Source: Candidatus Heimdallarchaeota archaeon
GTDB taxonomy: Archaea > Asgardarchaeota > Heimdallarchaeia > Heimdallarchaeales > Heimdallarchaeaceae
Direction: 5' to 3'
NCBI GenBank assembly: GCA_030668875.1
Contig: DAOVER010000014.1
Span: 1 to 64,000, forward strand
Length of the DNA stretch: 64,000 nucleotides
The notes below the pieces were generated by a model. The model was not told where the DNA came from and did not search any database. It saw only the letters and a list, made by a program, of their open reading frames with translations. This document shows positions 1,615 through 50,104 of the stretch, piece by piece; positions within the stretch are counted from its first letter, which is position 1, and each line of letters starts with the position of its first letter. A program made the translations under genes and the position numbers.

Positions 1615-3216
1615 TCACATTTTTGCTTTTAGTGCATCTTTCTGTTGTAAGTTCATATAGTTTAATAGAGTATTTTCCAATCTAGAGAACCCATAATTTC
1701 TACACTTCTTTATCGCCATATACTGTAAAGCTGGCCCAAGGGGGTCTCCATTCTTATATGCCCCTACCTGAATGAAAGCTTCCATGAAGATACGCATTTC
1801 CAGAACTTCTATTCTATGGAGTCTGTTATTGTATTTCTTTAACAGAGGAGAAATTTTAGTATAGTGCTTGAGTGAAAACAATTGTTGGGCAATAAGGAGA
1901 TCTGCATAAGCATGTTCTATGAATGTAGTTTTACTTGTTGTTATGCGCTTTTCTAAAGTAGCAATACAACTCAGTGCTATCTGTTCCTGATTAATCCATG
2001 TTAACTTTCGTTTTCCAAGCATAAACTCTATTAGATGCTTAACACGATTAATGCTGAAATTATTGATTTCTAATAACTTTTGAAGTTTATCAGAATCGAG
2101 GTCAGAATTAAGGATGAATTCACTCAAAGACATGAAATCACTGTATTGACTTTTACAATTCTCAAAAATCTCATCGATCAGCTCTTGATGCTCCTGAGGA
2201 TCATAATTTCCTAAACGTGAAATATTGTAGAAATTTACAAGATTGAGATTATGAATAATTTGTTTCTCTGTATTCTTATCTAAATGTTTTTTCATAAAAT
2301 CTGATTGGAGAAGAATGTATGCTTCTTTAATTAAAACACAAGCCTGTTCTGTTTTGCCCTGCAATCCTTTAACAATCGCAAAATAAGAGTGAAGAACAAG
2401 AAAATTGCTGAAGTAGATACTGTTATTGTAAATTGGTTTAAGGATATTATAAGCCTCATTGAAATAAGATTCAGCCATTATTAAATTAGCGTTTAGAATA
2501 TAAATCCAACCTGTGAAATAGTAAATTATACCTCTTATATCAAGTGGTAAGTTTTCAAAGAGATATCTATTAGCGAGAATTTGATTGCTCAGGTTTAATG
2601 CTTTCATGTTTTCATGCATTCTGGAATAGATTATCCCTAAAAGTCCAATAGTTTGAGCTAAACTCCTATAGAACCCTCCCTTGAAGAAATAATGCGCACA
2701 ATCTTCTAGAATTTTTACACTTTCAGAATCATGTTCTTCTAACCATTTTTCAATTGCATATGAATAATGTACAAAATGAACAATATACGGGTCTTCTTTT
2801 TTTGACTTATCAATAAGTAAGAAGGCCTTTTCTATGAAAGATTTTCCTTTAACTTTATTTACCTTTATCTTTTCTATAAACCACCAGTATGAATAAGTTA
2901 ATGCTAATCCTTCTTGATTGGAATTTTCTTTAGAAAGATTTTCCATATCATTTGCTATTTTGATGATTTTTTCCAAATTCTCTCTACGATTTTCCAGTAA
3001 CAATATTTTGAGTCCGTACAGATTTACAATTGATTTATAATCATAGAAATTCTTGGCTTTTTCTATTGTTTTCTCAATTAGTTGGATTAAATTTACATTT
3101 GATTTATTATTTAATGTAAAAACCCGAAGTTGTTCTACAATTTGTTTAAATCTATCCAACGTCATATTTTCTTGGATTTGTTGTTCAAAATAATCCTCAT
3201 TCACTCTATAACTCAT
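1615..3216 (-). CDS. TPR-like helical repeat protein, copy 1
   Basis: This 533-residue, predicted all-helical cytoplasmic protein has no signal peptide or membrane segment. Repeats with TPR-like spacing are visible in the middle (around RSLAQTIGLLGIIYSR, IIYYFTGWIYILNA, LVLHSYFAIVKGLQGKTEQA). It is a paralogue of the 4066-5652 gene and of the broken gene at 47826-49414. The C-terminal ~70 residues, including VGAYKNGDPLGPALQYMAIK, are nearly invariant in all three, while the first ~100 residues diverge. No N-terminal HTH is seen. Three intact tiny peptide genes and one decayed one lie directly upstream on the same strand. A TATA-like element (tttataaat) sits about 30 nt before the ATG. TPR proteins commonly bind peptides, so a peptide-receptor role is possible, but that is inference. 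Confidence 0.8.
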   Translation of the reverse strand: MSYRVNEDYFEQQIQENMTLDRFKQIVEQLRVFTLNNKSNVNLIQLIEKTIEKAKNFYDYKSIVNLYGLKILLLENRRENLEKIIKIANDMENLSKENSNQEGLALTYSYWWFIEKIKVNKVKGKSFIEKAFLLIDKSKKEDPYIVHFVHYSYAIEKWLEEHDSESVKILEDCAHYFFKGGFYRSLAQTIGLLGIIYSRMHENMKALNLSNQILANRYLFENLPLDIRGIIYYFTGWIYILNANLIMAESYFNEAYNILKPIYNNSIYFSNFLVLHSYFAIVKGLQGKTEQACVLIKEAYILLQSDFMKKHLDKNTEKQIIHNLNLVNFYNISRLGNYDPQEHQELIDEIFENCKSQYSDFMSLSEFILNSDLDSDKLQKLLEINNFSINRVKHLIEFMLGKRKLTWINQEQIALSCIATLEKRITTSKTTFIEHAYADLLIAQQLFSLKHYTKISPLLKKYNNRLHRIEVLEMRIFMEAFIQVGAYKNGDPLGPALQYMAIKKCRNYGFSRLENTLLNYMNLQQKDALKAKM

Positions 3217-3235
3217 TACTTTCGAACTATTATCC

Positions 3236-3267
3236 GCAAATTGATTTATAAAGGTGGATAATTATCC
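3236..3267 (-). promoter_or_regulatory. Promoter with palindrome upstream of TPR copy 1
   Basis: On the minus strand a TATA-like box (tttataaat, about 3243-3251) precedes the start codon by ~30 nt and is followed by caatttgcggat. The same arrangement, TATA then caattt(a/g)cggat, occurs before TPR copy 2, and a related tttatatat...tcggatta occurs before copy 3. Immediately upstream at 3256-3267 is a perfect 12-nt palindrome, ggataattatcc, placed where an archaeal regulator could act. Confidence 0.55.
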
Positions 3268-3331
3268 TCAACGAATAGTTGTGAAAAAATGAAATAAATA
3301 AAGAAACATTTGAAAAATGAAGAAATTTGAA

Positions 3332-3385
3332 ATGGAGACCATAATAATGGTAATTATATTCATTTCCATCTTCTAGATTGTATGC
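3332..3385 (-). pseudogene. Decayed copy of the short-peptide ORF
   Basis: On the minus strand this stretch aligns with the peptide gene at 3820-3885: tac-aat-cta-gaagatgga matches tac-gac-cct-gaagatgga, and the following attacca..ttatgg..ccat also matches after a one-base deletion. It lacks a start codon and the reading frame is broken. It is the member closest to TPR copy 1, which suggests that members of the array are gained and lost. Confidence 0.6.
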
Positions 3386-3409
3386 TTTTTTCAATAAGTC
3401 TCTCTTTTC

Positions 3410-3478
3410 TTACGGATGCCACAAAGGAGGGGTTATTGCATCGTCTCCATCTTCCGGATCATATTTGTTTTTCATCAT
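3410..3478 (-). CDS. Short acidic peptide, 22 aa (peptide A)
   Basis: ATG-ATG start, TAA stop, encoding a 22-residue peptide (MMKNKYDPEDGDD, then AITPPLWHP). It is too short for the ORF track. It belongs to a six-member family in this window sharing Y-D-P/S, G-D and P-P-x-W-x-P. A Shine-Dalgarno-like gagtgatg lies just upstream, as in the other copies. The ~150-nt leader before it (including tttcttgttgtcttttagta) is also shared. It is strongly acidic in the middle and has no hydrophobic export signal. Function is unknown; see the finding on the peptide/TPR loci. Confidence 0.7.
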   Translation of the reverse strand: MMKNKYDPEDGDDAITPPLWHP

Positions 3479-3620
3479 TTTTTCATCACTCTTTTATGTT
3501 ATACTTAGAAGAGACAAAAGATACTAAAAGACAACAAGAAAGAAACTGACAATAAAACAGTTTTACTAGTAGCTATATACAACAAAACAAGAGTTTGAAA
3601 AAGAAAAATGGGAAATGAGA

Positions 3621-3692
3621 TTAATTAGGTGTCCACGCAGGGGGTAAAATGTCTTCGTCTCCTTCACCAGGATCATATTTTTGTTTCATCAT
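3621..3692 (-). CDS. Short acidic peptide, 23 aa (peptide B)
   Basis: ATG-ATG start and TAA stop encode MMKQKYDPGEGDED followed by ILPPAWTPN. It differs from peptide E (5935-6006) at only one residue (P/S at position 8), although eight other codons differ by silent third-position changes. That pattern indicates selection on the amino-acid sequence, so this is very probably a real gene and not a chance ORF. Shine-Dalgarno-like gagtgatg lies just upstream. No signal peptide. Function unknown. Confidence 0.78.
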   Translation of the reverse strand: MMKQKYDPGEGDEDILPPAWTPN

Positions 3693-3819
3693 TGTTCATC
3701 ACTCGTTAAGTCATACTTAGAAATGTAAAAACCTACAAAAAGACAACAAGAAAAAAACTGACAATCAACAGTTCTTACTAGTCATATTATCAACAAAATA
3801 AGCCTTTTATAAAAAATCT

Positions 3820-3885
3820 CTATGGTCTCCATAAGGGTGGTAATATGCTTTCGTCTCCATCTTCAGGGTCGTATTTTGTCGTCAT
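3820..3885 (-). CDS. Short acidic peptide, 21 aa (peptide C)
   Basis: ATG start (followed by ACG where the other copies have a second ATG) and TAG stop encode MTTKYDPEDGDES followed by ILPPLWRP. The family core Y-D-P-E-D-G-D-E and PPLWxP is kept; the terminal Asn is absent, as in peptide A. Shine-Dalgarno-like gagtgatg lies just upstream and the leader is shared with the other units. It is the first unit downstream of TPR copy 2 and probably starts a separate transcript. Confidence 0.7.
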   Translation of the reverse strand: MTTKYDPEDGDESILPPLWRP

Positions 3886-4065
3886 TTTTGCATCACTCGA
3901 TTTAGTTATACTTGAAATAGCAAAACCATACTAAAAGACATCAAGAAAGAAACTGACAATAAGGTTGTTTTACTAGTAAACATATCAATAAAACAGGCAT
4001 TTTCAATAAGCAGGAGAAATTTAGTAACAAATAATAAACTTCCCAAAGAACCCTCAATTTATTCT

Positions 4066-5652
4066 CTAGATTTTTCTTGTTATTTCCTTCCGTTGCAATT
4101 GTAAGTAATCTAGTAATTTATTTTCCAATCGGGAGAAACCATAATCTCTACATTTTTTTATTGCCATATACTGTAAAGCTGGTCCTAGTGGATCTCCGTT
4201 CTTATATGCGCCTACTTGGATAAAAGCTTCCATGAAAATCCGCATCTCTAGAACCTCAATTCGCTTGAGTCTACTCTCATATTGTTTAAGAAGAGGAGAA
4301 ATTTCCGCGTACCGCTTAAGAGAGAACAGTTGCTGAGCAATAAGGAGATTCGCATTGGCATGTTCTATGAATGTAGTCTTGCTTGTTATTACGCGCTTTT
4401 CTAAAATAGTAATACAGTTCAGAGATTTCTGCTCCTGACTAATTTCCGCTTCTAACTTTTGCTTTTCTAGCATGAATTCAATTAGATGTTTTACTCGATT
4501 AATGCTGAAATTATCTATAGTTAATAACTGTTGAAGTTTATCAAAATCAAAATTGGAGTTAAGGATGAACTCGCTGAAGGTCATAAAATCACTATAATGA
4601 ACCTTACAACCTTCATAGATTTCCTCCATTAATTCCTGATTTTCTTGAGGATTATAGTTGCTTAAACGTGATATATTATAGAATTTTGTTAAATTGTAAG
4701 TATGAGTAATTTGCTTTTTTGTGTTTTCATCCAAGTTTTCCTTGATAAATTCTGTTTGGAGAAGTTTCCCCGCTTCTTTGCACATATCTGCAGCTTGCTT
4801 GGTTTTTCCTTGTAAACCTTTAACAGTAGCAAGATAAGAGTGTAAGACAAGAAAATTGCTGAAGTAAATACTGCTTTTGTAAATCGGTTTTAGGATATTG
4901 TAAGCTTCATTGAAATACGATTCAGCCATTACTAAATCAGCAACTAACATATGACCTAAACCTGTAAAATAATACATTATCCCTTTAACATCAAGAGGTA
5001 AATTCTCAAAGAGAGCTCTGTTAGCAAGAATTTTATTACCCATATCTAATGCTCTCTTACCTTGCTGTCTTCTTGAGTAGATGACACTTAGAAAACTGAA
5101 AGTTTGAGCTAGGCTTCTATAAAACCCCTCTTTATAAAAAAATTTACTACAGTCTTCAAAATCATTTGCTGTTTCAAAATTATGATTCAATACCCAATCT
5201 TCAAAGGCAAGTGAATATTTACAAATATAATAAACATAATTATCCTTTTGTTCATTTTTTGATAAAAGTAATTTTACTTTTCTTAGAGAATTAGTACTTT
5301 CTTTAATTCTCCCTTCTAACTTTAGAATACCCCATTCAATTGAATATGCCAATATTAAACCATCAATATAATTGATTTCTTTTGATATTCTAAACATTTC
5401 AGACAGAAGAAAATTAATTCTCTTTATTGAGCTTCTTTTATGAAATAATTGCTTTATTTCAAGCTCATACAGATTAACAATGGATTTTTTATGATTTAAC
5501 TTTTTACTCCATTTAATTGCTCTTCTTATTATTTCTAAAACAATTTCGGATTTTTCGTTTGCTGAAACTAAACGTAAATTCTTAATTATTCCTGGCAGTT
5601 CTTCATGATTTCTAATATTTTTAATCTGTTTTATTAATCTCTCCTTCTGCAT
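4066..5652 (-). CDS. TPR-like helical repeat protein, copy 2
   Basis: This 528-residue protein is a paralogue of copy 1. Identity is low over the first ~100 residues, moderate through the TPR-like centre (RSLAQTFSFLSVIYSRRQQG, GIMYYFTGLGHMLVADLVMA) and near-complete at the C-terminus from IEVLEMRIFMEAFIQ onward. No HTH, signal peptide or membrane segment is seen. The start is supported by aggtgtga seven bases upstream and a TATA-like tttatatat ~35 nt upstream. Two peptide genes (D, E) lie directly upstream in the same orientation and three more follow. The 3' ends of copies 2 and 3 differ mostly by silent changes, so the conserved C-terminus is maintained by selection and not simply by recent conversion. 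Confidence 0.8.
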   Translation of the reverse strand: MQKERLIKQIKNIRNHEELPGIIKNLRLVSANEKSEIVLEIIRRAIKWSKKLNHKKSIVNLYELEIKQLFHKRSSIKRINFLLSEMFRISKEINYIDGLILAYSIEWGILKLEGRIKESTNSLRKVKLLLSKNEQKDNYVYYICKYSLAFEDWVLNHNFETANDFEDCSKFFYKEGFYRSLAQTFSFLSVIYSRRQQGKRALDMGNKILANRALFENLPLDVKGIMYYFTGLGHMLVADLVMAESYFNEAYNILKPIYKSSIYFSNFLVLHSYLATVKGLQGKTKQAADMCKEAGKLLQTEFIKENLDENTKKQITHTYNLTKFYNISRLSNYNPQENQELMEEIYEGCKVHYSDFMTFSEFILNSNFDFDKLQQLLTIDNFSINRVKHLIEFMLEKQKLEAEISQEQKSLNCITILEKRVITSKTTFIEHANANLLIAQQLFSLKRYAEISPLLKQYESRLKRIEVLEMRIFMEAFIQVGAYKNGDPLGPALQYMAIKKCRDYGFSRLENKLLDYLQLQRKEITRKI

Positions 5653-5720: not shown

Positions 5721-5792
5721 TTAATTGGGAAACCACAATGGAGGAGTAAAGGATTCGTCACCGTCTTCAGGATCATATCTTTGTTTCATCAT
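5721..5792 (-). CDS. Short acidic peptide, 23 aa (peptide D)
   Basis: ATG-ATG start and TAA stop encode MMKQRYDPEDGDES followed by FTPPLWFPN. It ends 68 nt before the TPR copy 2 start. The C-terminal PPLWFPN is identical to that of peptide F next to the third TPR copy, with a silent change at the penultimate Pro codon. Leader and Shine-Dalgarno-like gagtgatg are shared with the family. Confidence 0.75.
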   Translation of the reverse strand: MMKQRYDPEDGDESFTPPLWFPN

Positions 5793-5934: not shown

Positions 5935-6006
5935 TTAGTTAGGTGTCCACGCTGGTGGCAAAATATCCTCATCTCCTTCTCCAGAATCATATTTTTGTTT
6001 CATCAT
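5935..6006 (-). CDS. Short acidic peptide, 23 aa (peptide E)
   Basis: ATG-ATG start and TAA stop encode MMKQKYDSGEGDED followed by ILPPAWTPN, nearly identical to peptide B. Eight silent differences against one replacement argue for purifying selection. Unlike the other copies, its leader diverges from the family consensus about 25 nt upstream of the start, so it may use a different promoter. It is divergent from the HerA-like gene at 6196. Confidence 0.78.
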   Translation of the reverse strand: MMKQKYDSGEGDEDILPPAWTPN

Positions 6007-45912: not shown

Positions 45913-46029
45913 TCAGAGAGAGTTTTATTATGTTCTGTCTTAGGAAATATGTATTGATTTCTCGGTGTTTAAATAACTTCTTCTAATAAGGATAATGAGT
46001 TTCAATTCAAACTAACTGATTCTAAGTTG

Positions 46030-47436
46030 ATGACGATGATGGTTGTAGAACACCTTTCAAAAGAAAAACATAATTCTTTAGATTGGAAGCAGAATACTGA
46101 CATTGTTACAATACAAGTATTTGAGATTAGTTTGAATGGAAACCAAGATCAACTCACAAATCTGTTAACAGAATTGAAGTCAAAAAACGTCATGTTCACT
46201 CTGAAAATAACAAAAAGCAACCTCTTTCTTTTGATTTATTCTTTGAACAATTCAAGAAACACCAACAAAGAAACTGGCTTGATAAACTATTTTGTGCAAA
46301 CTTATTCTCTCAAGGATACAGTTAATGCAGAGGAATTTTTCATTCAAAATGTGAAGAAAGTAGTTCAAAAGGATAATATTCTACAATTCTTTCAGGAAAA
46401 TGGAAAACAGTCTTATACACTAGCTTTTTTGCTTTCCTCAATAGATTCAGACTCAAATAGTTTTTCTAAGCGTTTTACTAATTTTACAACTAACCTTGTG
46501 AAAGCTGATATATTCTCAATAATTATTTCTTCTATCCCTTCTATTGACAGAACGGCATCAAAAAACTCAAAGTGGGCGTTAATGCTTCTTGCTCAAGATG
46601 ACAACCGTATTCAGATAGAAAAAAAGGAAGAAACATTTCATCGCTTCCTTAATGCGAATTCATCGAAACTAAATTGTAAATTGTCATATATAACAAAGAA
46701 AGAATTCGTGAGGCATAAAACAAATTTTAGATATCTTGTTCCTTGGCATTATCTTAAAGGTGAATTTACAGATAATGTTGAGATAAACAAATTGCTAAAA
46801 ATTGATCACCCCTCTCTTAATCCAGCAACAGGACATTGCACAAAAACACTTAGTAAAAACCAATCTCCTCCAGTTCAAGAAAAGCTAAAAACCAAGGAAG
46901 ATCAAGTGGTTAAACAACCCTTTCCTTCTGTCAAAGCTTCAAAATCTAACAAACACATTTCTAATCCAGTTTTTGCTAAAGTAGAGAAAAAATCATACAC
47001 AAAAAGAATAAAGAGGGACAACTACATGGTAAGTAATTTAGATGATATTTCAATTCCAATGCCAAAAACAGTGAATGTTGTTTTTGATCTAGAGTATTTA
47101 AAGGTAAGAATTAGTAAGATGTTTAAAGATTTCGAATTTAAAGAAACAGTGATTTTTGAGGATAATTTTGATCTGGTTCTTAGAAAAGGATCCTTTTACA
47201 TATTTACTAAATTCTATAAGGAGATTCTAAATCAAGCTGAAGCCTACAAAATTATTGAACATTTAGGTAGCATAGCTGGGTTAAGGAACCAATTTTTATG
47301 CATAATAGTAGCTGATAATATAGAAGAGAAATCTATGAAGATTCTAAATGAGTTCAATGTGCTTCATTTAACTTTAAGCGATGTTTTGCTTGAGGATACG
47401 CTTAAAAGCAAGATTTATAATACTATCTTAGCCTAG
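46030..47436 (+). CDS. Uncharacterised two-domain protein
   Basis: About 468 residues from ATG at 46030; not recognised. The N-terminal ~240 residues form an alpha/beta region (VFEISLNGNQDQLTNLLTEL, FTLKITKSNLFLLIYSLNNS). A charged, Pro/Lys-rich linker follows (residues ~265-335). The last ~110 residues form a second alpha/beta domain (NVVFDLEYLKVRISKMF, FLCIIVADNIEEKS). The first part loosely recalls N-terminal domains of archaeal conjugation/HerA partners, but I make no assignment. It lies upstream of peptide F and TPR copy 3 on the same strand, ~160 nt away. Confidence 0.55.
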   Translation: MTMMVVEHLSKEKHNSLDWKQNTDIVTIQVFEISLNGNQDQLTNLLTELKSKNVMFTLKITKSNLFLLIYSLNNSRNTNKETGLINYFVQTYSLKDTVNAEEFFIQNVKKVVQKDNILQFFQENGKQSYTLAFLLSSIDSDSNSFSKRFTNFTTNLVKADIFSIIISSIPSIDRTASKNSKWALMLLAQDDNRIQIEKKEETFHRFLNANSSKLNCKLSYITKKEFVRHKTNFRYLVPWHYLKGEFTDNVEINKLLKIDHPSLNPATGHCTKTLSKNQSPPVQEKLKTKEDQVVKQPFPSVKASKSNKHISNPVFAKVEKKSYTKRIKRDNYMVSNLDDISIPMPKTVNVVFDLEYLKVRISKMFKDFEFKETVIFEDNFDLVLRKGSFYIFTKFYKEILNQAEAYKIIEHLGSIAGLRNQFLCIIVADNIEEKSMKILNEFNVLHLTLSDVLLEDTLKSKIYNTILA

Positions 47437-47524
47437 AAAATAGACTGCTTTTCTACCCCCATTTGTTTATGATGCTGTATATAGTTTCTGTGGATAACAC
47501 AACTAGAAAAACTGGGGGAATGGC

Positions 47525-47664
47525 GGTTTCTTTCTTGTTGTCTTTTAGTATGTTCTTACTCTTCTAAGTATGACTTAATCGAGTGATGAACAATGATGAA
47601 ACAAGTATATGACCCCGAACCTGGCGACGATGATATAGGACCACCATTGTGGTTTCCTAATTAA
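47525..47664 (+). repeat. Single peptide-gene cassette with conserved leader
   Basis: ggtttctttcttgttgtcttttagtatgttc..., ctcttctaagtatgactta and gagtgatgaac match, almost base for base, the leaders of the minus-strand peptide cassettes 40 kb away. Conservation over ~70 nt outside the ORF indicates either a recent transposition-like duplication or a selected leader. Confidence 0.7.
47593..47664 (+). CDS. Short acidic peptide, 23 aa (peptide F)
   Basis: ATG-ATG start and TAA stop encode MMKQVYDPEPGDDD followed by IGPPLWFPN. It ends 161 nt before the broken TPR copy 3. Its C-terminal PPLWFPN equals that of peptide D, with silent codon changes elsewhere in conserved positions (GAT/GAC, CCT/CCC, GGT/GGC). 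Shine-Dalgarno-like gagtgatg lies just upstream. Confidence 0.75.
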   Translation: MMKQVYDPEPGDDDIGPPLWFPN

Positions 47665-47731
47665 TTTTTTTTCTTAATCTATTTTTGATAGATAGTTTAT
47701 ATCAAAGATTCCTAATTATTTATTACCCTAG

Positions 47732-47760
47732 TTTATATATGAAATGTCGGATTAATTTAT
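47732..47760 (+). promoter_or_regulatory. Promoter-like element before TPR copy 3
   Basis: tttatatat followed by gaaatgtcggatta repeats the TATA plus (t)cggat(t)a pattern seen before TPR copies 1 and 2. Here it is ~95 nt from the assigned start codon, further than in the intact copies. Confidence 0.4.
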
Positions 47761-47825
47761 AGATAACTGTAGCACATGTGCATTGAAACAAAATAATTGT
47801 GTAATAAATCAGTTTTCAAGGAAGT

Positions 47826-49414
47826 TTGGTGAGTGTTGTGTTGGATCCTAATCTATGGAATAAAGTCAAATTAGTTAAAACAAAGGAAGATTTAAGATGT
47901 TTTATTGATGTCTTGAGAATTATTGCAGCTAATGAAAAATCAGAAGAAGTAAGAGAGCTCATTAATGAAACGATTAAGAAATCTCTAGAAATTGAGGATG
48001 GTATTTCTCGTATTCATCTGTACAAATTGGAAATAAAGCAGGTTTTTCATCAAATTACAGAATTACCTAAAGCTGAGAAAAAACTAAAAGAAATGAAAAA
48101 CAGTCAATTGAGCGAAATTACAAAGATGGTTTAATTCTTAGCCTTTCAATTGAATGGGGAATTGAAAAACTAAAGGGAAACAAGGAGGATAGTAAAAGAG
48201 CCATTACTCAATGCATGACTCTGTTAGAAAACAATAATGCACGCGATGAATATATCTATCATATTTGCAGATACATTTATGCAACTGAACAGTGGATAGA
48301 AGAACACAACTACCAATGTTCAAGCATCCTTGAGGAGCTTATTCCTTATTTTCATCGAAAAGGTTTCCACAGAAGCATTGCACAAATTCTAGGAATATTG
48401 TCAATTATATATCAACACACTCAAAATGAAGCAAAAGCAAGTTATATAAGCGAACAGTTATTTAGCAATAAATATCAAATTAATCAACAGTCTGATGATT
48501 TCCAAGTAATATCTTATTATTTGGCTGGTGTAGGGAAATTATTAGGTCACAATTTGAAACAAGCAGAGAATCTGTTTAATGAATCTTATGTCTTGTTAAA
48601 TAAACAACTACAGCAGAGTAGTTACTACTCTTATTATTACATTAGATTGTTATCGCATATGGCGACTGTTCAAGCTCTGCAAGGTAAAATTGCTCTTTCA
48701 TATGGAAATATTGGGAAAATTGAAAAATTACTTGAAGATGATTTCTTTTCAAAAAATATGGAACCATATAGCAAGAAACAAGTTCCACACTCTTTGAATT
48801 TAGTCAAATTCTATGTAAAATCGCGGTTTTATGGCTTTAAAACAGAGAACATTCAACAACTTATAGGACAGATATGTAGAGGAATTGAAGGTAATTATAG
48901 TGATTCAATCCTTCTCAGTGAATTCATTCTGAATGCAGAATTAAATAAAAAACTGCTAGAAAAACTAATTGAATCAAATAATGCAAGCTTACTACGAATT
49001 AAACACATCATAGAATATATGTTACTAAAATCACAGAACAATAATGAAGATGTTGTCGATTCTTATACAAATGCTCTGAATAGAAAATTGAAGACTAAAA
49101 GGATTACATTTATTGAACGAGCATTTGCTAAACTTCTACTTGCTCAAGAACTCTTTAATAGGTAAAAATATTCAGAAATCACCCCTCTATTGAAGAAATA
49201 CGAGAGCAGGCTACAGCGAATTGAAGTCTTGGAAATGCGGGTTTTTATGGAAGCTTTCATCCAAGTAGGAGCGTATAAGAACGGAGATCCTCTTGGTCCA
49301 GCTTTACAGTATATGGCAATAAAGAAATGTAGAGATTATGGGTTCTCTAGATTGGAAAACAAACTGCTAGATTACTTACAACTACAGCGAAAGGAGATTA
49401 CAAGAACAATATAG
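47826..49414 (+). pseudogene. TPR-like protein, copy 3, broken
   Basis: Three ORF-track pieces (47826-48134, 48215-49165, 49190-49414) together align end to end with TPR copies 1 and 2. A one-base-deletion-type frameshift lies near 48095-48105: the frame after it reads SIERNYKDGLILSLSIEWG, matching NYIDGLILAYSIEWG of copy 2. An in-frame TAA at 49163-49165 replaces a Lys in LFSLKRYAEISPLL. The last 71 codons match copy 2 with only about three replacements but many silent differences, so the gene was under selection until recently. A sequencing error could explain one lesion but less easily both. Confidence 0.8.
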
Positions 49415-49690
49415 AACTCAGGTGAGGGGTTCTTATGCTATTTGGAGGTTTTTTGTTTGTCAAAACTCTTCAAGTTACACTGAAATTTTTCTTGAATTGG
49501 TTAGACCTTAGCAGAGTGAGTATAGACACCTTGCGATGATCTCTAAGAAATACTCTCAACTAGCTCTTGTCTAAGGCGACAGGGGAACAACAACTCATCA
49601 TAAATCCTATAAATATAGCATTTAAATTTTCTTTGAGAATCGTCTAATAAATTCACTACAAGGTTATTGTATTACAGAAGATTATCAGTC

Positions 49691-50104
49691 ATGAAGAAAA
49701 GAGTTGTTATTATGGAGGCAAAATCTAAGCTAATAACATCGTATATTGCTAGTATTGTTAAGAAATACTTGCCGAAAAACGAGGAAATTATCCACAGCGG
49801 CTTATTCCTGTTGTCTACGAGAGAAGAACAATTAAAAATTCCAGATTGGTATTATAACGGATATTCAGTAATTTCAGAAACTGTATCCAGTTATCTCCAA
49901 ACTCTTTGCATTGATAAGGCTCTTACATTCACAAATGATGGAATGTACTTGTTTAGAGATGATCAAAATACAATTTCAAGTGAAGACATAGAAAAGGCTG
50001 TTTCTACTGTCAATAATATGCTACCTGATTATGAATCAGGAATAAAAATAGTAAAAGAAGCAAATAGAGAGTTTCAATTGAAACATATTGGCGCTGTAAG
50101 ATAA
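49691..50104 (+). CDS. Hypothetical protein
   Basis: About 137 residues from ATG at 49691; the internal ATG at 49712 (MEAKSKLITSYIASIVKKYL) is an alternative. Soluble, mixed alpha/beta, with YYNGYSVISETVSSYLQTLC and ISSEDIEKAVSTVNNMLPDY. Family not recognised. A TATA-like ctataaatatag lies upstream near 49608. Convergent with the HD-domain gene, 4 nt apart. Confidence 0.5.
   Translation: MKKRVVIMEAKSKLITSYIASIVKKYLPKNEEIIHSGLFLLSTREEQLKIPDWYYNGYSVISETVSSYLQTLCIDKALTFTNDGMYLFRDDQNTISSEDIEKAVSTVNNMLPDYESGIKIVKEANREFQLKHIGAVR

Follow-up and report, generated by a model that had tools for sequence, protein, structure and literature searches.

A repeated peptide gene/TPR-type receptor gene unit in Heimdallarchaeota: a putative archaeal counterpart of Gram-positive peptide signalling, with one recently broken receptor

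Results

The copy 3 locus and its genome

The stretch of DNA analysed here (the window, 64,000 nucleotides) corresponds to contig C9 in the genome of a Candidatus Heimdallarchaeota archaeon (3.23 Mb, 92% complete). Towards its right-hand part, a conserved promoter/leader and a Shine-Dalgarno-like site precede an intact gene for a very short peptide, peptide F, which is followed in the same orientation by a gene for a TPR-type putative receptor, copy 3 (Table 1). The receptor gene is broken: its first reading frame runs from 47826 to 48134, a second frame takes over from about 48095, and the last piece ends at 49414. The frameshift and the in-frame TAA described in the first-pass annotation are both present in the sequence (48095 and 49163-49165), and the order of peptide and then TPR gene is, as it stated, that of the loci in 1615-5652. 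The leader of peptide F had also been said to match those of the first loci, and indeed it shares 92% identity over 76 nt with that of the window peptide at 5721-5792 (-). The locus is therefore real, but it is not merely a third one, as the genome contains at least seven loci with a receptor of this short type, on contigs C9 and C95. More distant, long-form relatives of the receptor were found on contigs C19 and C20. After the copy 3 receptor gene, positions 49420-49455 (+) contain a stretch GGGGTTCTTATG...TTTGGAGGTTTTTT, also found in a subset of the other units, which is possibly a terminator or another 3' element. At the left end of the window, the first 1452 bases (+) matched the archaeal large-subunit rRNA family; this 23S rRNA fragment contains about 400 nt beyond the matched stretch of the model, an insertion or expansion segment. 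A Bacillus-like, bacterial source of the DNA was discarded in view of this archaeal rRNA and of the Heimdallarchaeota records of the relatives.

Table 1. Positions of the peptide/receptor features in the window and of receptor-less peptides in relatives
Feature	Position	Strand	Basis or remark
TPR receptor copy 1, 533 aa	1615..3216	-	intact
Peptide MMKNKYDPEDGDDAITPPLWHP, upstream of copy 1	3410..3478	-	
Peptide MMKQKYDPGEGDEDILPPAWTPN	3621..3692	-	
Peptide MTTKYDPEDGDESILPPLWRP	3820..3885	-	
TPR receptor copy 2, 528 aa	4066..5652	-	intact; AF2 model all-helical, mean pLDDT 90
Peptide MMKQRYDPEDGDESFTPPLWFPN, upstream of copy 2	5721..5792	-	
Peptide MMKQKYDSGEGDEDILPPAWTPN	5935..6006	-	
Inserted unit, approximate borders	47470..49604	+	synteny and boundary alignments
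Conserved promoter/leader of peptide F gene: box like TGTCAnnTTTCTTTCTTG, TATA-like TTTTAGTATG, then CTAAGTATGAC	47518..47580	+	
Shine-Dalgarno-like GTGATG, just 5' of peptide F start	47583..47588	+	sequence
Peptide F, MMKQVYDPEPGDDDIGPPLWFPN, 23 aa	47593..47664	+	intact
TPR-type receptor copy 3, ~530 aa	47826..49414	+	broken
Frameshift in copy 3, A-run one base shorter than in L059 ortholog	48095	+	alignment to L059
In-frame TAA in copy 3	49163..49165	+	
3' part of copy 3, encoding near-invariant C-terminal module	49190..49414	+	
Receptor-less motif peptides, L218	3569-3969	+	
Receptor-less motif peptide, L219	4284-4395	-	
Receptor-less motif peptide, L222	3892-3955	+	

Peptides and their promoter

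The peptides are 18-24 aa long, start with M(M)K or MM(Y/N) and share the core DPxxGDxxxxPPxWxP, after which there is as a rule no more than one further residue. Neither a signal sequence nor a hydrophobic stretch was seen in them. In front of their genes lie, in this order, a box resembling TGTCAnnTTTCTTTCTTG, a TATA-like element (TTTTAGTA or GTTTTAATAG) and CTAAGTATAAC or AGTAACC. The box was detected upstream of 72 of the 106 peptides, compared to 2 for the reversed control, and a Shine-Dalgarno-like site lies 5' of 100 of them. Searched with up to three mismatches, the promoter pattern occurs at seven places in the window's own genome, all of them unit loci, and the reversed pattern nowhere in it. 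The conserved stretch 'LSVSFLLSF...' was considered as a hydrophobic leader in frame with the peptide and fused to it, which was rejected; the stretch ends at a stop and its frame relative to the peptide varies between copies, so that it reads as promoter DNA. A systematic fusion of peptide and receptor was likewise discarded, as only about one third of the pairs are in frame.

Structure and constraint of the receptor

AF2 models copy 2 as one uninterrupted superhelix, entirely helical and without any extra domain (mean pLDDT 89.9), and its fold matches in the PDB are general TPR proteins (best 50 Foldseek matches). No confident family match was found for the receptor in Pfam, NCBIfam, PHROG or PADLOC, the Pfam TPR_12 match being weak and below the cut-off. 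No HTH family was matched either, and the model consists of uniform helical repeats.

The paralogues diverge freely up to residue ~450 (for copies 2 and 3, dN is ~0.5-0.6 over the parts readable in both), whereas the last ~70 residues are almost invariant among the paralogues of the genus; a second genus has a different stretch there. The 3' part of copy 3 had been described as differing from copy 2 mostly by silent changes, and this holds: over the last 73 codons pS is 0.68, which is near saturation, and pN is 0.03. So low a pN at near-saturated silent sites is indicative of purifying selection on a C-terminal module common to every paralogue, and because of the saturation gene conversion was also rejected as an explanation for why the 3' ends match. 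As the pattern is common to all paralogues, it is by itself no evidence that copy 3 was lost recently. The C-terminal module is inferred to contact a common partner, although no output partner has been shown.

Distribution of the unit

With copy 2 as the query, matches were found in 21 of 97 relatives, all from a single family, and some genomes gave as many as ten or more; the named relatives that carry receptors are mostly listed as 'Candidatus Heimdallarchaeota' and the remainder as 'Asgard group archaeon'. Of the 21 genomes that represent the genus, 19 contain the unit, as does a second genus; a single genome can have as many as ~10 such loci, ~16 peptides and ~10 receptors. Of the two exceptions in the genus, G006 has no short-type receptor and only a long-form match, and G012 has no match at all. 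A DNA pattern for GD[DE]xxxPPxW gave 108 matches. The genomes that contain them are precisely those with short-type receptors, 20 in number (19 of the genus and one of the second genus), and the reversed pattern gave none in the same 20 genomes. Two further matches, unexplained, lie in G070 (C115:14195 and C162:3569), the genome of a distant member of the phylum that lacks the receptor.

A motif peptide is encoded upstream of 65 of the 66 intact short-type receptors, usually at a distance of 60-240 bp, and some receptors have two or three upstream peptides. The proposal in the first-pass annotation that the pair is a repeated unit thus has strong support throughout the genus. Long-form receptors sometimes have related peptides as well, such as DPGDDDIIPPAWFP upstream of the one in L223. 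In that locus, GDDDIIPPAW-type peptides were seen on both sides of the long-form receptor, at 1864-1927 (+) and 3783-3852 (-).

Decay of the units is not restricted to copy 3. In the window's own genome, contig C95 contains a degenerate unit (L014, 5427-7320 (-)); its peptide, MMSNKKYDPDEGDEDFLPPA, terminates at the Trp codon, and its receptor is interrupted by several stops. Other genomes contain receptors with a single stop, frameshifted receptors and remnants of receptors, and peptides without a receptor within ~4 kb were found in L218 (two), L219 and L222.

In several genomes of both genera, an FtsX-type permease and an ATPase adjoin the units. In L013 (12972-15651 (-)), for example, an FtsX-like permease and an ABC ATPase lie between two units, an arrangement that recurs in the second genus (L085). 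Within the genus, 18 of 21 genomes have this type of ABC pair. It is missing in G006 and G012, both of them without units, and in G009, where units occur. The pattern would fit an exporter, but it is circumstantial and may only mark the lineage; export has not been shown.

Insertion between two ordinary genes

The copy 3 unit is flanked by genes at 46027-47436 and 49667-50104. According to synteny and boundary alignments, the same two genes are only ~100-130 bp apart in 14 relatives, without any unit between them. An insert of ~2.1 kb with one unit is present in the window's own genome (G000) and in Heimdallarchaeota HM4_B41 (G004), at 91% nucleotide identity. In a further genome, G007, the same gap holds a unit of a different peptide type and in the opposite orientation, the receptor of which is interrupted by a TGA (L063 on G007:C203, 3076-4609 (+), peptide MMYKQKYDPEDGDEGLTPPMWHPS). 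In view of this second unit, the gap may be an insertion hot spot. Neither terminal repeats nor a recombinase nor a tRNA target was recognised at the borders of the insert, so that a tRNA gene as integration site was not retained, and a virus-borne origin is unsupported because no relative was found among viral contigs.

Recent inactivation of copy 3

The first-pass annotation had suggested that this receptor was lost recently and its peptide left intact, and comparison with a relative supports this with better evidence than that annotation had. The ortholog in G004 (L059) has neither the frameshift nor the TAA of the G000 copy and carries instead an in-frame TAG elsewhere. Between the two genomes, the receptor shows a dS of 0.24, a dN of 0.051 and a dN/dS of 0.21, like an intact flanking gene (0.22), and peptide F is nearly unchanged relative to its L059 ortholog, with five synonymous changes and one residue changed. 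The different lesions together with the dN/dS of 0.21 argue that the loss is recent, and the divergence suggests that selection acted to retain the receptor during most of the period after the split. As far as such comparisons can tell, it is thus supported that the receptor was broken recently and separately in G000 and G004. The three flanking genes have a higher dS (0.38-0.43) than the receptor, and a later exchange of the unit between the lineages could account for this.

Co-variation of peptides and receptors

Peptide distance and receptor distance are correlated (rho 0.64), as compared to 0.11 +/- 0.05 for within-genome shuffles, none of 2000 of which reached 0.64. The front of the peptide (eight residues) shows a partial rho of 0.52 with receptor residues 257-441 and of 0.01 with residues 7-126, whereas the tail shows 0.41 with residues 7-126 and -0.08 with residues 257-441; shuffles gave about -0.05 to 0.07 for these crosswise partial correlations. 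The locus pairs are not independent, and the numbers are guides rather than probabilities. Physical linkage alone yields some correlation between a peptide and its receptor, but the crosswise pattern is harder to explain in this way than the overall one. It is the pattern to be expected if the peptide lies extended and antiparallel in the TPR groove. Binding of the upstream peptide by its receptor is accordingly an inference from sequence variation, without binding data. When one in-frame read-through of peptide, gap and receptor was modelled with AF2 as a single chain, the peptide was not confidently docked (pLDDT 56 over its residues 11-20, and 33-42 elsewhere in the peptide and the linker).

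Discussion

The reading that we prefer, with a probability of roughly 0.6, is that Heimdallarchaeota have a multi-copy peptide-receptor system and that the copy 3 locus is one of its units. In this system, a dedicated conserved promoter would drive expression of a leaderless peptide of 18-24 aa with the DPxxGDxxxxPPxWxP core, and the receptor encoded directly downstream would accommodate the peptide, extended and antiparallel, in the groove of its TPR superhelix. Recognition of the peptide type would fall to the divergent part of the receptor, and the near-invariant C-terminal ~70 residues would pass the state to a common partner. Units that are duplicated and inserted may diverge into parallel peptide 'codes', with receptors that decay and peptides that often stay; the copy 3 unit would have entered between two genes, and in each of the two species that have it the receptor would have been inactivated recently. 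The pair itself, its conservation, the insertion, the lesions, the purifying selection and the crosswise co-variation can be read from the sequences compared here; physical binding, the output function of the C-terminal module and signalling are inferred, and export and use between cells are speculative.

The pair might instead work only inside the cell, as an autoregulatory or adaptor pair in which the peptide serves the TPR protein as a ligand or clamp in the cytosol. The lack of a signal sequence or hydrophobic stretch and the ratio of one receptor to one to three peptides within a unit would suit this, but the recurrent parallel peptide types, the orphan peptides and the exporter-type ABC pair fit exchange better, and the LCP class of Firmicutes provides a case of secreted peptides without a leader (PMC10518010); we regard a purely intracellular role as unlikely, though by no means dismissed. 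A toxin-antidote pair, in which the TPR protein would harm its own cell unless neutralised by the peptide, would be addictive and able to spread, which agrees with the many copies, with insertion at sites empty in relatives and with receptors lost while peptides are kept, as expected if the peptide is the antidote. Since no toxin fold and no PADLOC defence family was matched, and a C-terminal module common to all paralogues of the genus would be unusual for diversified toxins, this appears distinctly improbable. The reverse assignment, a toxic peptide held by a protective TPR protein, is contradicted by the broken receptors that are tolerated beside intact peptides.

Two further alternatives concern the genes themselves. 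The lesions could be assembly or sequencing errors, copy 3 being intact in the living cell: the frameshift is a one-base change in an A-run, and the TAG-bearing contig of the relative has a stated coverage of only 1.7x. Against this, one gene contains two separate lesions while the three compared flanking genes are full length, broken or remnant receptors recur in other genomes, and one unit has a truncated peptide; we consider such errors improbable. It is hardly credible that the peptide ORFs go untranslated and that what is conserved is a regulatory leader of the receptor acting as RNA or DNA. The leader just 5' of each peptide is strongly conserved, as this would require, but orthologous copies vary by codon, as in the five synonymous changes and one changed residue of peptide F, the residue pattern is kept even where leaders differ, and the ORFs are generally preceded by the Shine-Dalgarno-like site.

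The closest parallels to the peptide-receptor system that we favour are the RRNPPA systems (Rap-Phr, NprR-NprX, PlcR-PapR, AimR-AimP) of Gram-positive bacteria and phages (PMC12700828). As in these, a short peptide gene adjoins a gene for a TPR-superhelix receptor, and peptides and receptors diversify in parallel. RRNPPA receptors have an N-terminal HTH DNA-binding domain, with the exception of Rap and a few others, and the Heimdall receptor resembles Rap in having no DNA-binding domain. It differs from RRNPPA members in the lack of an HTH, in its length of ~530 aa and in being archaeal, and its peptide is encoded upstream and has no secretion signal. RRNPPA peptides are exported, processed and re-imported; for the Heimdall peptides the only hint of such a route is the circumstantial FtsX-type ABC transporter. 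No RRNPPA entry was found in a profile search of PDB sequences or among the best 50 Foldseek matches, and no NCBIfam family scored above the cut-off. We therefore favour a system that works like RRNPPA yet, by the tests made, lies outside that family.

The AloR/aloneuron systems of Paenibacillus similarly comprise many paralogous peptide-receptor pairs per genome, but their propeptides are secreted and processed, the family is bacterial and no homology was found (PMC7425212). The leaderless communication peptides of RopB-type Rgg regulators are, like those described here, very short and encoded beside a TPR receptor; RopB, however, is a DNA-binding regulator and the peptide motif is different (PMC10518010). 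Of the features that define that class, a leaderless peptide and an Rgg-type TPR receptor with an HTH, the Heimdall pair has the leaderless peptide and not the HTH. Binding of a short linear peptide by a TPR superhelix, as proposed here, is also known from the C-degron reading receptor APPBP2 (PDB 8jal, 8jaq), but its fold match to the Heimdall receptor reflects the general TPR shape only (TM 0.4-0.5, 10-12% identity), and it is a subunit of a eukaryotic ubiquitin ligase.

The exchange of peptides between cells is plausible but not shown, and we rate it somewhat below even odds. A self-standing Asgard peptide pheromone system, unrelated by descent to RRNPPA, with secreted leaderless peptides each having its own TPR receptor and with mobile, decaying units that behave like mating or kin codes, is an equally tentative proposal. 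No report of a genetically encoded archaeal peptide-receptor pairing of such a kind was found in the open-access literature; subscription papers and preprints were outside the scope of the search, and a prior description is possible.

Asgard archaea are related to the host from which eukaryotes arose. The best reading of the unit is an archaeal counterpart of Gram-positive signalling by peptides and TPR receptors, without a detected relationship to RRNPPA, in which binding is inferred and secretion, output and use between cells are untested. If the pairs do signal, Asgard archaea would own a diversified peptide system with private codes that arose separately from those of bacteria.
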